A DNA stretch of 46,007 nt, taken from positions 1-46,007 of the forward strand of contig JAHDVX010000020.1 of the NCBI GenBank assembly GCA_023382455.1, given 5' to 3'. Origin of the DNA: Flavobacteriales bacterium (lineage in GTDB: Bacteria; Bacteroidota; Bacteroidia; Flavobacteriales_F; PHOS-HE28). Positions 1,335 to 4,068 of the stretch are shown here, piece by piece (position 1 is the stretch's first letter; every line of letters begins with the position of its first letter). A model generated the notes under the pieces. The model worked only from the letters and a program-made list of their open reading frames with translations. It was not told the DNA's origin and did no database searches. Position numbers and translations under genes: made by a program.

Positions 1335-1988
1335 TCAGCGCGCGCCCCGCACTACCCGCGGCTCTTTGCCGTTGCGCACCTTGAGGTAGCGTTGGTACTC
1401 CGGGCTGTATGCGGCGCGGTGGTCGAACACGGCGCCGAAATTGCCCAGGAGATCGATCACGGCCTCGGTGGCCTCGCGCAGGCCGTTCTCCCCGCCGCTG
1501 CACTCGGTCACGATGTCGGCATCGCCACGGGCAACCACGTGCTCGGTAAAACGTTTTCCGCTCCTACGGCCGATCATCACGCGCAGGCCGCATTGCCGGG
1601 CCACAGGCAGGTCGATGGCATCATCGAAGAAGAAGGCCACCTCATCCGCCTTGAGGCGCTGATCCAGCAGGAATTGCCGAAAAGCATCGGGCTTGTTGAT
1701 GAAGCCCATGTACAGGCCGTGGAAGCGTTCACGTTGCACAAAGCGCTCCGCATGCGGATTGAGCTGCCCGGTGATCACCGCTGCCGCCGGTTCCTTGCCG
1801 TTCTTCAACCAGAGGGCGAATCGCAGCATGTTCACGCCCATGCTGCCCACCTCGCTGAACGGGCTGCCGCCATCCAGGTCCTTCCAACCGTCGTTGAACA
1901 CGCCGTCCCAATCGAACAGCACGGCCTTGATGCCTGCCGCCCGCTCTTGGAGCTCGGCGGTGCCGCGGATGAACCGGGTCGGGAACAT
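1335..1988 (-). CDS. HAD-superfamily phosphatase, KdsC-like (Kdo 8-phosphate phosphatase candidate)
   Basis: A 217-residue HAD hydrolase. Motif I is FDWDGV with nucleophile D26 and D28, motif II is VITGQ (T73), motif III lysine is K99 in INKPDAF, and motif IV is FFFDDAIDLP (D122/D123). The end of the core, ECSGGENGLREATEAV, is the GG..G.RE pattern of KdsC, which removes phosphate from Kdo-8-phosphate. At 217 residues it is longer than typical KdsC (about 170-190), with about 20 extra N-terminal and 25 extra C-terminal residues. Position two genes after kdsA supports the assignment. A different sugar phosphate substrate is possible. Confidence 0.7.
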   Translation of the reverse strand: MFPTRFIRGTAELQERAAGIKAVLFDWDGVFNDGWKDLDGGSPFSEVGSMGVNMLRFALWLKNGKEPAAAVITGQLNPHAERFVQRERFHGLYMGFINKPDAFRQFLLDQRLKADEVAFFFDDAIDLPVARQCGLRVMIGRRSGKRFTEHVVARGDADIVTECSGGENGLREATEAVIDLLGNFGAVFDHRAAYSPEYQRYLKVRNGKEPRVVRGAR

Positions 1989-2121: not shown

Positions 2122-3144
2122 TCAAGCGGAGATCGCCTTGATCAGGTCTTGGATGTCCAGCATCCCGAGCTGTTTGCCGTTCTCGCTCACGCTCAACGTG
2201 TCCACCTTGTGCTCCTTGAACGCTTTCTGGGCCTCGTCCAGCAAGGCTTCCGGCGATACGGTGTAGGGCGCGTTGAACTTCAGCGTGCTCAGCTTCTTCG
2301 TGAGGAACTTGTTGCCTTCCTTCTCCAGCCCGCGGCGCAGGCCGCCATCGGTGAACACGCCCACGTTCTTTCCCTTGGCATCCACCACCATCACGGCGCC
2401 GAAGCCGTGCCTGGTCATCTCCACCAAGGCTTCGCTCACGGTCTTGCTGTCCTTTACCACGGGGTTGTTGCGGGTCAGGATGTCCTTCACCTTCATGGTG
2501 ATCAGGCGGGTGTCCACGTAGAACTGCTTGGTACCGATGGCCGTGAAATGGTTGTCGGTGAGCTGCCTCATCAGCTTCCAGGGCACGGTGATGGTGTGCA
2601 CGCCGAGTTCCACCGCATTGCGGACATGCTCCACGGTGCGCACGCTGCTGAACATGATCTTGGTGTCGTAGCCGTAGTAGTTCACGGCGCGCACGCATTG
2701 CTCCACCAGGGCGAGGGCGTCGTGGCCCTGGTCCTGCAGGCGGCCCACAAGCGGACATACGTAGTTGGCACCGGCCTGCATGGCCATGTAGGCCTGCTGG
2801 ATGGTGTACACCAGGTGCACGTTCACCATGATGCCCTCGTTGCGCAGCATCTTGCAGGCGCGCAGGCCCTCCAAACTCACGGGGATCTTGAAGACGGTGG
2901 TCTCCTTCTTCAGGCCCATTTTCAGCTGGCGCTTGGCCTCCTTCACCACCTCTTCGGCGGTCTCGCCCAAGGCTTCCACTTGGAGAATGGGCACCTTCTT
3001 GGCCAGGTCCAGGATCATCTTGTCGATGTCCGTGACGCCGCCGCGGTGCATGAAGGTGGGCGTGGTGGTGAGGCCGGTGAGGAAGCCGAGCTTGAAGGCT
3101 TCGTCGATCTCCTTGATGTCGGCGCTGTCCAAGTAAAGTTCCAT
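2122..3144 (-). CDS. Transaldolase (fructose-6-phosphate-aldolase-like) fused to a KdsD-type CBS pair
   Basis: A 340-residue two-module protein. Residues 1-207 form a class I aldolase barrel of the short transaldolase / F6P-aldolase type: LDSADIKEID (5-14), TTTPTF (26-31), Schiff-base lysine K86 in VFKIPVS, NVHLVYTIQQA (108-118), YVCPLVGRLQD (128-138) and the YG-DT / SVR segment (157-169). Residues 208-340 are two CBS motifs whose signature (LVEMTRHGFGA, VGVFTDGGLRR, VDTLSV, IQDLIKA) is that of the C-terminus of arabinose-5-phosphate isomerase KdsD. It lies 75 bases after kdsA and before the KdsC-like gene. Arabinose 5-phosphate supply or Kdo-linked feedback control of a transaldolase are inferences. 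The SIS isomerase domain of KdsD is absent. Confidence 0.85.
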   Translation of the reverse strand: MELYLDSADIKEIDEAFKLGFLTGLTTTPTFMHRGGVTDIDKMILDLAKKVPILQVEALGETAEEVVKEAKRQLKMGLKKETTVFKIPVSLEGLRACKMLRNEGIMVNVHLVYTIQQAYMAMQAGANYVCPLVGRLQDQGHDALALVEQCVRAVNYYGYDTKIMFSSVRTVEHVRNAVELGVHTITVPWKLMRQLTDNHFTAIGTKQFYVDTRLITMKVKDILTRNNPVVKDSKTVSEALVEMTRHGFGAVMVVDAKGKNVGVFTDGGLRRGLEKEGNKFLTKKLSTLKFNAPYTVSPEALLDEAQKAFKEHKVDTLSVSENGKQLGMLDIQDLIKAISA

Positions 3145-3183
3145 GGGGGAATGCGGAGTGGTTATGGTTTGGAGCCACTGTCG

Positions 3184-3204
3184 CGTCGACCCGATGGGTC
3201 GACG
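3184..3204. repeat. Perfect 9-bp palindrome with 3-base loop between kdsA and the transaldolase gene
   Basis: CGTCGACCC (3184-3192), GAT, GGGTCGACG (3196-3204) form a 9-bp perfect hairpin in the 75-base kdsA-transaldolase gap. No T-run follows, so it is not a classical terminator. It could be a REP-like element, an RNA processing or stability signal, or an attenuator. Confidence 0.6.
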
Positions 3205-3219
3205 GTACAGCTGCGGGGA

Positions 3220-4068
3220 TCAGATCTTTTCGGAGGCGTATTGGCGGTGCTTCACCTCCACGGCGTGCAGGTCCAGCAAGGGTTTCAGGAATTCCTCGAG
3301 GTCATATACGCAGAGCTGGCTGGCCGCGTCGCACAGGGCCGTGGAGGGGTCGGGGTGGGTTTCGATGAACACGCCATCCACGCCCGAGGCCACGCCGGCC
3401 CGTGCGATGGTGGGCAGGAACTCGCGGTTACCGCCGCGCGGGTCGGCGCTGGGGATGCCGTACTTGCGGATGCTGTGCGTGATGTCGAACACCACGGGGT
3501 AGCCGGTCTGCCGCAGGTGGTAGAAGCTGCGCGGGTCCACCACCAGGTCGTTGTAGCCCAGCACGAAGCCGCGCTCGGTGAGGATGATCTTCCCGTTGCC
3601 CGTGCTCTCGATCTTCTTCACCGGCTTGGCCATGTTGTCCGGGGCCAGGAACTGCCCGTGCTTGAGGTTGATCACCGCACCGGTCTTGGCGGCCTCGGTG
3701 ACCAGCGTGGTCTGCATGCACAGGTAGGCCGGGATCTGCAGCACGTCGCACACCTCGGCCGTGGCTTTCACCTGGCTGGGGTAATGCACGTCGGTGAGCA
3801 GCGGGAAGCCGAATTCCTTCTTCACCTTCTCCAGCATCTTCAGGCCTTCGTCCAGGCCCGGCCCCATGTAGAACTCCACGCTGCTGCGGTTGTCCTTCAT
3901 GAAGCTGCTCTTGTAGATCACCGGCACCTTGGTGCGCTCGCTCACCTCGCGCAGCTTCTCGGCGGTGCGCATCATGATGCTTTCCTCCTCGATCACACAG
4001 GGACCGGAGATGAGGAAAAGCTGGTCCGAGCCGCAAGGGATGGACCCCACTTGAACGATCTTGGTCAT
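3220..4068 (-). CDS. kdsA: 3-deoxy-8-phosphooctulonate synthase (Kdo-8-phosphate synthase)
   Basis: Condenses arabinose 5-phosphate with phosphoenolpyruvate to Kdo 8-phosphate, the first committed step to the inner-core sugar of lipopolysaccharide. The 282 residues match the family from MTKIVQVGSI. Recognisable blocks are LFLISGPCVIEEE (18-30), KSSFMKDNRSS, GPGLDEGLKML, LLTDVHYPSQ, VINLKHGQFLAP, DITHSIRKYG and IETHPDP near the C-terminus. C24 in SGPC marks the metal-dependent class (Aquifex type) rather than the metal-free E. coli type, which has Asn there. The longer open frame upstream of 4068 reads into the FAH gene and was dropped. A TAACTTCG box lies 25 bases upstream. Confidence 0.95.
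   Translation of the reverse strand: MTKIVQVGSIPCGSDQLFLISGPCVIEEESIMMRTAEKLREVSERTKVPVIYKSSFMKDNRSSVEFYMGPGLDEGLKMLEKVKKEFGFPLLTDVHYPSQVKATAEVCDVLQIPAYLCMQTTLVTEAAKTGAVINLKHGQFLAPDNMAKPVKKIESTGNGKIILTERGFVLGYNDLVVDPRSFYHLRQTGYPVVFDITHSIRKYGIPSADPRGGNREFLPTIARAGVASGVDGVFIETHPDPSTALCDAASQLCVYDLEEFLKPLLDLHAVEVKHRQYASEKI

Follow-up and report, generated by a model that had tools for sequence, protein, structure and literature searches.

The window analysed here is a stretch of 46,007 nucleotides from a Flavobacteriales bacterium (contig JAHDVX010000020.1, assembly GCA_023382455.1). It carries a gene (2122..3144, minus strand, ATG start) for a protein of 340 residues in which a transaldolase-fold barrel is joined to a CBS pair. 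We conclude that this fusion, a putative KdsD replacement, likely supplies arabinose 5-phosphate (A5P) to the product of the adjacent gene, KdsA', of the 3-deoxy-D-manno-octulosonic acid (Kdo) 8-phosphate synthase family, and that the flux is probably set by a ligand of the CMP-Kdo type acting on the CBS pair. Most Gram-negative bacteria build Kdo into their lipopolysaccharide as a basic unit, and its precursor A5P is, in the textbook account, made by the isomerase KdsD. The computational case for a functional replacement of KdsD is strong, because of the gene order, the near-complete mutual exclusion with KdsD and the co-occurrence with kdsA, and also because the catalytic site has decayed in five homologues, all of one family that lacks kdsA, and because one operon without the fusion occurs in a genome with KdsD elsewhere. 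That A5P is the product is probable, and the fusion is probably an unrecognised replacement for KdsD in many Bacteroidota. No description of it was found in the open-access literature, subscription journals being mostly outside the search.

The results of our Pfam searches showed a TAL_FSA match (PF00923) at residues 3-201 (E 8.5e-37) and two CBS stretches (PF00571) in the C-terminal part (E 2.4e-17). These were the sole Pfam matches, and no SIS domain was found, as an earlier reading of the sequence of this window (the original prediction) had stated. The barrel comprises residues 1-212 (2509..3144, minus strand, with the Lys86 codon at 2887-2889) and the CBS pair comprises residues 213-340 and the stop codon (2122..2508, minus strand). 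The fusion scored 62.3 bits against the KdsD model TIGR00393, in the CBS half only, and 163.9 bits against the TalC/FSA model TIGR00875, and so reached neither curated cut-off (203.7 and 245.95 bits, respectively). The AlphaFold2 model of the fusion had a mean pLDDT of 91.6, and structure comparison matched its barrel to transaldolases (3s0c, Z 29.2, 215 residues, root-mean-square deviation 1.7). The arrangement is not a product of chance, since it is kept in 98 distinct relatives (query coverage >85%).

Comparison of the C-terminal part with other CBS proteins by profile, sequence and structure showed that the pair is, by its sequence, of the KdsD type, as had been predicted. All 36 aligned members of the fusion family matched the KpsF and KdsD models at E <= 1e-10 in the CBS part, and the best PDB sequence match of this part was the CBS pair of the A5P isomerase 4o9k. 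When the C-terminal part was folded alone, its best matches were the CBS pairs of A5P isomerases (4o9k, Z 18.1; 3k2v, 18.0; 3fna, 17.6), but structure alone was indecisive on the CBS type, the non-KdsD pairs 2rif and 3fhm lying at most 1 Z from 4o9k. In the CBS tree, the fusion pairs grouped with KdsD pairs, and IMPDH and the pairs joined to ribulose-phosphate-3-epimerase (RPE) lay across a branch supported at 94/93; the fusion branch is long (2.16 changes per column), and the tree program warned of long branches, RPE with IMPDH and the KdsD of E. coli and G347. An unrelated origin of the CBS pair was thus rejected by profile and sequence. The ligand of 4o9k is presumably CMP-Kdo and, by analogy with this CBS type, the fusion is probably controlled by CMP-Kdo or CMP-8-amino-Kdo.

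We then surveyed genomes for KdsD and for the fusion. The host genome (3.43 Mb, 99.95% complete) gave no match over the KpsF/KdsD cut-off in a profile search, and its SIS proteins look, on reading their sequences, like GlmS, MurQ-like, PGI/PMI-like and GmhA-like proteins, so that no KdsD hidden elsewhere in the genome was found by either approach. Of 198 genomes of the phylum, 4 gave a fusion match and 143 a KdsD match, and none gave both. Among 295 genomes of the class (thresholds: KdsD E <= 1e-30, kdsA E <= 1e-50, fusion E <= 1e-45), the fusion was found in 57, KdsD in 167 (154 of them over the curated cut-off) and kdsA in 211. The 211 kdsA-positive genomes comprised 48 with the fusion only, 157 with KdsD only, 2 with both and 4 with neither, while 70 of the 74 class genomes with neither enzyme were also without kdsA; eight genomes with KdsD gave no kdsA match. 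Within each of six families (f3, f9, f11, f44, f49 and f73), some genomes have the fusion only and others KdsD only, without overlap. The original prediction of a link to A5P supply is supported by this co-occurrence pattern together with the grouping of the CBS pair with KdsD and the lack of kdsD in the host. Its proposal of a second route beside KdsD is not, since the host has no KdsD and only 2 of 211 genomes have both enzymes; the fusion looks like a replacement instead.

The genome G454 (7.0 Mb, one contig) has the order kdnA-kdnB-kdsA'-kdsC'-kdsB; here kdsA' is followed by kdsC' without an intervening fusion, and KdsD lies elsewhere in the genome, adjoining a gene that reads as recQ-like. 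The KdsA' of this genome nests inside the clade of KdsA' from fusion operons (99/97), and for this reason the fusion was most likely lost there and KdsD does its job. In family f42, five lysine-less transaldolase-CBS homologues (L122-L126, from five of the six f42 genomes with a fusion match, the sixth being G449) have at position 86 an arginine (four) or a serine (one), and T26 and H110 are gone, while the CBS pair looks intact, with D266 and R271 kept. The f42 genomes are without kdsA, which together with the loss of Lys86 indicates that the catalytic site decays where kdsA is gone. These dead fusions might serve as separate sensors, the f42 genomes having an RPE barrel without a recognisable CBS pair. 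Finally, two genomes, G335 and G300, have the fusion and no KdsD match, and in each of them kdsA' is accompanied by another kdsA (L211:2812-3636 and L212:2606-3415, respectively) whose motifs are the ordinary K-A-N-R, C-R-Q-T and K-K-G-Q-F; if this second kdsA is no contaminant, the fusion is the sole candidate found for its A5P supply.

In the window, kdsA' (3220..4068, minus strand) lies upstream of the fusion and kdsC', for a KdsC-like HAD phosphatase (1335..1988, minus strand), lies downstream in a conserved position; coordinates and profile matches therefore agree with the order given in the original prediction. The window KdsA' passed the curated cut-off of TIGR01362 (331.3 vs 314 bits), and the phosphatase was a weak KdsC match below the cut-offs (51.8 vs 208 bits). 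Among the 67 loci with enough flank (of L011-L090; the tabulated rows omit L091-L093 and L096-L118, which are short stretches or duplicates), kdsA was present upstream of the fusion in 49 and a HAD phosphatase downstream in 58, mostly adjacent, where present means on the stretch examined. In the 56 loci flanked on each side by 3.5 kb or more, kdsA was found in 40, the HAD gene in 49, kdsB in 13, kdnA in 11 and kdnB in 11 (minimum scores: 120 bits for kdsB, 250 bits for each of kdnA and kdnB). This gene order, conserved across loci, led us to reject a chance neighbourhood of the fusion with Kdo genes. The KdsD locus L095 has the order kdsA-kdsC-kdsD.

Alignment of the barrel showed that Lys86, Asp6, Glu57, Arg135, Ser167 and Arg169 of the fusion occupy the positions of the family's imine-forming lysine, its aspartate, its water-holding acid and its phosphate site. 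Residues T28, E57, K86, N108, H110, C130, L132, R135, S167 and R169 were invariant in 99 of 99 rows (the window fusion and 98 distinct sequences outside f42; L061 was omitted from A1), so that the lysine is intact, as originally predicted, in the window and in all these relatives; Asp6 was present in 98 rows, the remaining row having a gap. Proteins of the TalC/fructose-6-phosphate aldolase (FSA) family (TIGR00875, PF00923) are like the fusion in fold, in Lys86 and Asp6 and in the phosphate-site residues. Glu57 is of the transaldolase type, as in TalB and in a separate TalC-like protein of the host genome (G000:C11:94747-95406), whereas E. coli FSA has a glutamine. They differ at N28, T109, A129 (or serine) and Y131 (or phenylalanine), the E. 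coli FSA residues N28, T109, A129 and Y131 being aligned with Thr28, His110, Cys130 and Leu132 of the fusion, and in the CBS pair, which is appended in the fusion. According to the part of PMC13259622 that was available, the catalytic water of FSA is held by Gln59, Thr109 and Tyr131, the last being the proton shuttle, and the donor is contacted by Asp6 and Asn28. The triad Q/E59, T109 and Y/F131 is thus incomplete in the fusion, which keeps the acid as E57 and has H110 and L132 at the other two positions. Set against these roles, the invariant substitutions indicate a rebuilt donor side of the pocket, combined with retention of the lysine and of the phosphate site. The prediction of a fructose-6-phosphate-aldolase-type half therefore holds for the fold and fails beyond it, at Glu57, Thr28, His110, Cys130 and Leu132.

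In the mechanism that we propose, a pentose 5-phosphate would be bound through its C1 to Lys86 as an imine, with its phosphate held by R135, S167 and R169, whose counterparts in transaldolases have this role. PDB entry 3upb is, by its title, a transaldolase covalently complexed with arabinose 5-phosphate, which makes it structurally plausible that A5P could form an adduct with this lysine. The available parts of PMC9947464 and PMC6298115 state that FsaA forms A5P from glycolaldehyde and glyceraldehyde 3-phosphate (G3P) and that TalB F178Y gives both A5P and ribose 5-phosphate; if an enzyme on this scaffold can reach both C2 epimers, it could turn ribose 5-phosphate into A5P through a retro-aldol and an aldol step. 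We rank this 2-epimerisation first because a universal metabolite suffices for it, while holding it tentatively, at somewhat less than even confidence. Lys86 would capture ribose 5-phosphate, C2-C3 cleavage would leave a bound glycolaldehyde enamine and G3P, and the bond would re-form on the other face of C2 to give A5P, without free glycolaldehyde. Net aldol addition of free glycolaldehyde to G3P is a more doubtful candidate. Isomerisation of ribulose 5-phosphate is unlikely and would need another mechanism, since a lysine imine alone gives no free aldose from this substrate, the nitrogen remaining on C2.

Several observations weigh against the replacement of KdsD by the fusion as an A5P source. 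Fisher's test among the kdsA-positive genomes gave 3.5e-40, a value that ignores relatedness and is inflated, and the six mixed families are better evidence. At least 10 of the 157 KdsD-only genomes were counted from matches that fall short of the curated cut-off. Both enzymes are present in G422 and G443, of one genus, and four kdsA-positive genomes have neither: G351 (80% complete), G426 (60%), G210 (weak kdsA match) and G434 (98%). Seven of the 57 fusion genomes gave no kdsA match (six of f42, and G332, 67% complete), and in G335 and G300 the second kdsA may have come in through contamination during binning. The host genome encodes a GlmS-like protein, a possible source of A5P, and a eukaryotic GFAT, according to the available part of PMC11301363, can form A5P from ribulose 5-phosphate. 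A KdsB-type cytidylyltransferase was found in 60 of 60 genomes examined, those without kdsA included, and was for this reason dropped as proof of Kdo.

The motifs of KdsA' count against it as well, being unexpected if the substrate is plain A5P. The window KdsA' is without the usual K-A-N-R and R-Q-T motifs, which we take to be the sugar-phosphate site of KdsA. The changes are from K-A-N-R to K-D-N-R, from R-Q-[TS] to M-Q-[TS] and from K-K to K-H, and the loop differs, with H-x-[IV]-R-K-Y-G-I-P; the window protein itself has K-D-N-R, C-M-Q (M-Q-T), K-H-G-Q-F and H-S-I-R-K-Y-G-I-P. K-D-N-R was present in 69 of 75 extracted KdsA sequences, of which two are apparently from KdsD loci, and six were outside the pattern. 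The motif comparison covered 13 KdsA' rows from fusion loci (L087, L128, L129 and L130 gave no row) and 25 KdsD-positive genomes, of which 22 had ordinary KdsA motifs (in four of these, G217, G238, G380 and G427, the KdsD match of the genome is below the cut-off) and three, G454, G422 and G443, had KdsA'. This leaves two options: KdsA' acts on another aldose phosphate, or A5P is its substrate but is used in another manner, for example when handed over by the fusion.

The first of these options leads to the proposal that some other ulosonic acid is the product of the cassette, with the fusion yielding another aldose phosphate that KdsA' has evolved to use. The separate clade formed by KdsA' (support 100/99), its altered motifs, the ordinary motifs of most KdsD-positive genomes and the altered donor pocket of the fusion are all in favour of this proposal, which we nevertheless consider improbable: the window KdsA' passes the Kdo 8-phosphate synthase cut-off and has retained N-R in the A5P motif, G454 combines KdsA' with KdsD in the absence of the fusion, G422 and G443 have KdsA' together with both enzymes, and KdnB, named Kdo 8-oxidase in the PDB, lies beside the operon in several loci. 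G454 argues for A5P as the substrate of KdsA', and so does the second, ordinary kdsA in G335 and G300, two genomes with the fusion in which no match to KdsD was found.

It is very improbable that the fusion is a catalytically idle CBS sensor that controls KdsA' while GlmS or another enzyme provides A5P, as the catalytic residues are invariant outside f42 and exclusion of KdsD is not what one would expect of such a sensor, even though eukaryotic GFAT-type enzymes can isomerise ribulose 5-phosphate to A5P (PMC11301363, available part) and the five f42 homologues do look like dead sensors. The other reading of the original prediction, an ordinary transaldolase or fructose-6-phosphate aldolase of central metabolism placed under feedback from the Kdo pathway, fits poorly and we give it hardly any credence. 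The fold is right and Lys86, Glu57 and the phosphate-site residues are kept, but the host has its separate TalC-like protein, the fusion falls below the TIGR00875 cut-off, Thr109 and Tyr131 of the FSA triad are replaced by histidine and leucine in all 99 rows outside f42, and the exclusion of KdsD would be left without a reason; we rejected it on these grounds.

Replacement of KdsD by the fusion, our preferred reading, would operate in many of these bacteria within a pathway that probably leads from Kdo to 8-amino-Kdo, because kdn genes lie beside the fusion operon in several loci and KdnB is frequent in genomes with the fusion and kdsA. The KdnA of L146 matched the 8-amino-Kdo aminotransferase 5k8b (E 5.8e-139) and its KdnB the Kdo 8-oxidase 5k8c (E 4.9e-126). 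Of 40 genomes examined that have both the fusion and kdsA (host included), 31 have KdnB; it was also found in 2 of 10 KdsD genomes, in none of the five f42 genomes with a lysine-less homologue and in one of five genomes without kdsA, KdsD and fusion. We did not retain 8-amino-Kdo as the cause of the exchange between KdsD and the fusion, these counts being an association only. KdnA and KdnB have reportedly been studied in Shewanella and are said to act after Kdo is made.

A third arrangement was found when 14 genomes without kdsA were searched with the KdsA model at a loose threshold, which gave a match in 13, all but G360. In eight of these (L153, L154, L155, L158, L162, L164, L165 and L166, one each from G243, G204, G211, G206, G230, G041, G218 and G236), the match adjoins an RPE barrel fused to a CBS pair, assigned by Pfam in seven and, in L165, by a custom CBS profile and sequence reading only; these eight genomes gave no kdsA, KdsD or transaldolase-fusion match. 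In the other five, all of f42, it adjoins an RPE barrel without a CBS pair recognisable by Pfam. The scan of the synthases covered 11 of the 13 (L160 and L165 were left out), and all 11 passed the DAHP-synthase cut-off of TIGR01361. A KdsC-like phosphatase was present on 12 of the 13 stretches, and on all of the eight RPE-CBS stretches but L154. The genome G236 has a second DAHP synthase beside a gene that reads as trpA-like, so that the synthase of the third arrangement need not be the aromatic enzyme. This arrangement is possibly a third route to Kdo or a Kdo-like sugar.

The SIS, transaldolase and RPE fusions thus place CBS pairs on three unrelated catalytic domains next to such synthases. 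It is conceivable, although we hold this more loosely than the 2-epimerisation itself, that the fusion is a lysine-dependent ribose-5-phosphate 2-epimerase working on a transaldolase barrel by an intramolecular retro-aldol/aldol reaction and that, in Bacteroidota, SIS, transaldolase and RPE domains have each been joined to a CBS pair beside an ulosonate synthase of the KdsA or DAHP-synthase type. If so, the 2-epimerase would be a new enzyme class and the CBS pair a transferable feedback module acting on the committed step in the synthesis of Kdo or of Kdo-like sugars.

The A5P isomerases KdsD, KpsF and GutQ (TIGR00393) share with the fusion the proposed product, the kind of CBS pair and a comparable place in Kdo operons, but their catalytic domain is SIS, whereas the fusion has an unrelated transaldolase barrel with a predicted Schiff-base lysine. 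In an engineered pathway of glycolaldehyde assimilation (available part of PMC9947464), FsaA or TalB F178Y serves as an A5P aldolase, so that a transaldolase-fold enzyme makes A5P there too; that pathway is engineered, whereas the gene for the fusion is a natural one, dedicated to its task and located among Kdo genes. The A5P-forming GFAT of eukaryotes (PMC11301363) is likewise an A5P source other than KdsD; it differs in belonging to glucosamine synthesis, in being no transaldolase, in having no CBS pair fused to it and in lying outside Kdo operons. If the fusion does replace KdsD, many Bacteroidota make A5P by an unrelated enzyme (the fusion is present in 50 of the 211 kdsA-positive class genomes), one that would pass for a transaldolase or fructose-6-phosphate aldolase while the A5P step appears to be lacking. 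Genomes that have kdsA but lack kdsD would then be accounted for, there would be reason for caution in treating KdsD as a universal target, and the fusion would be a natural biocatalyst for A5P formation.

Three minor observations concern single sequences. The genome G360, of the host's genus and listed as 100% complete, has KdsB and KdnB and gave no match for kdsA, KdsD or the fusion, nor a DAHP-synthase-type match to the KdsA model at the loose threshold; an assembly gap or a further route is possible. A contig titled Candidatus Saccharibacteria (L058) has the fusion at 67% identity and is probably a mis-binned Bacteroidota contig. In the window, positions 2000-2115, between the fusion and the phosphatase gene, are intergenic and, by eye, rich in short repeats of the AACAACTGACAACT type.

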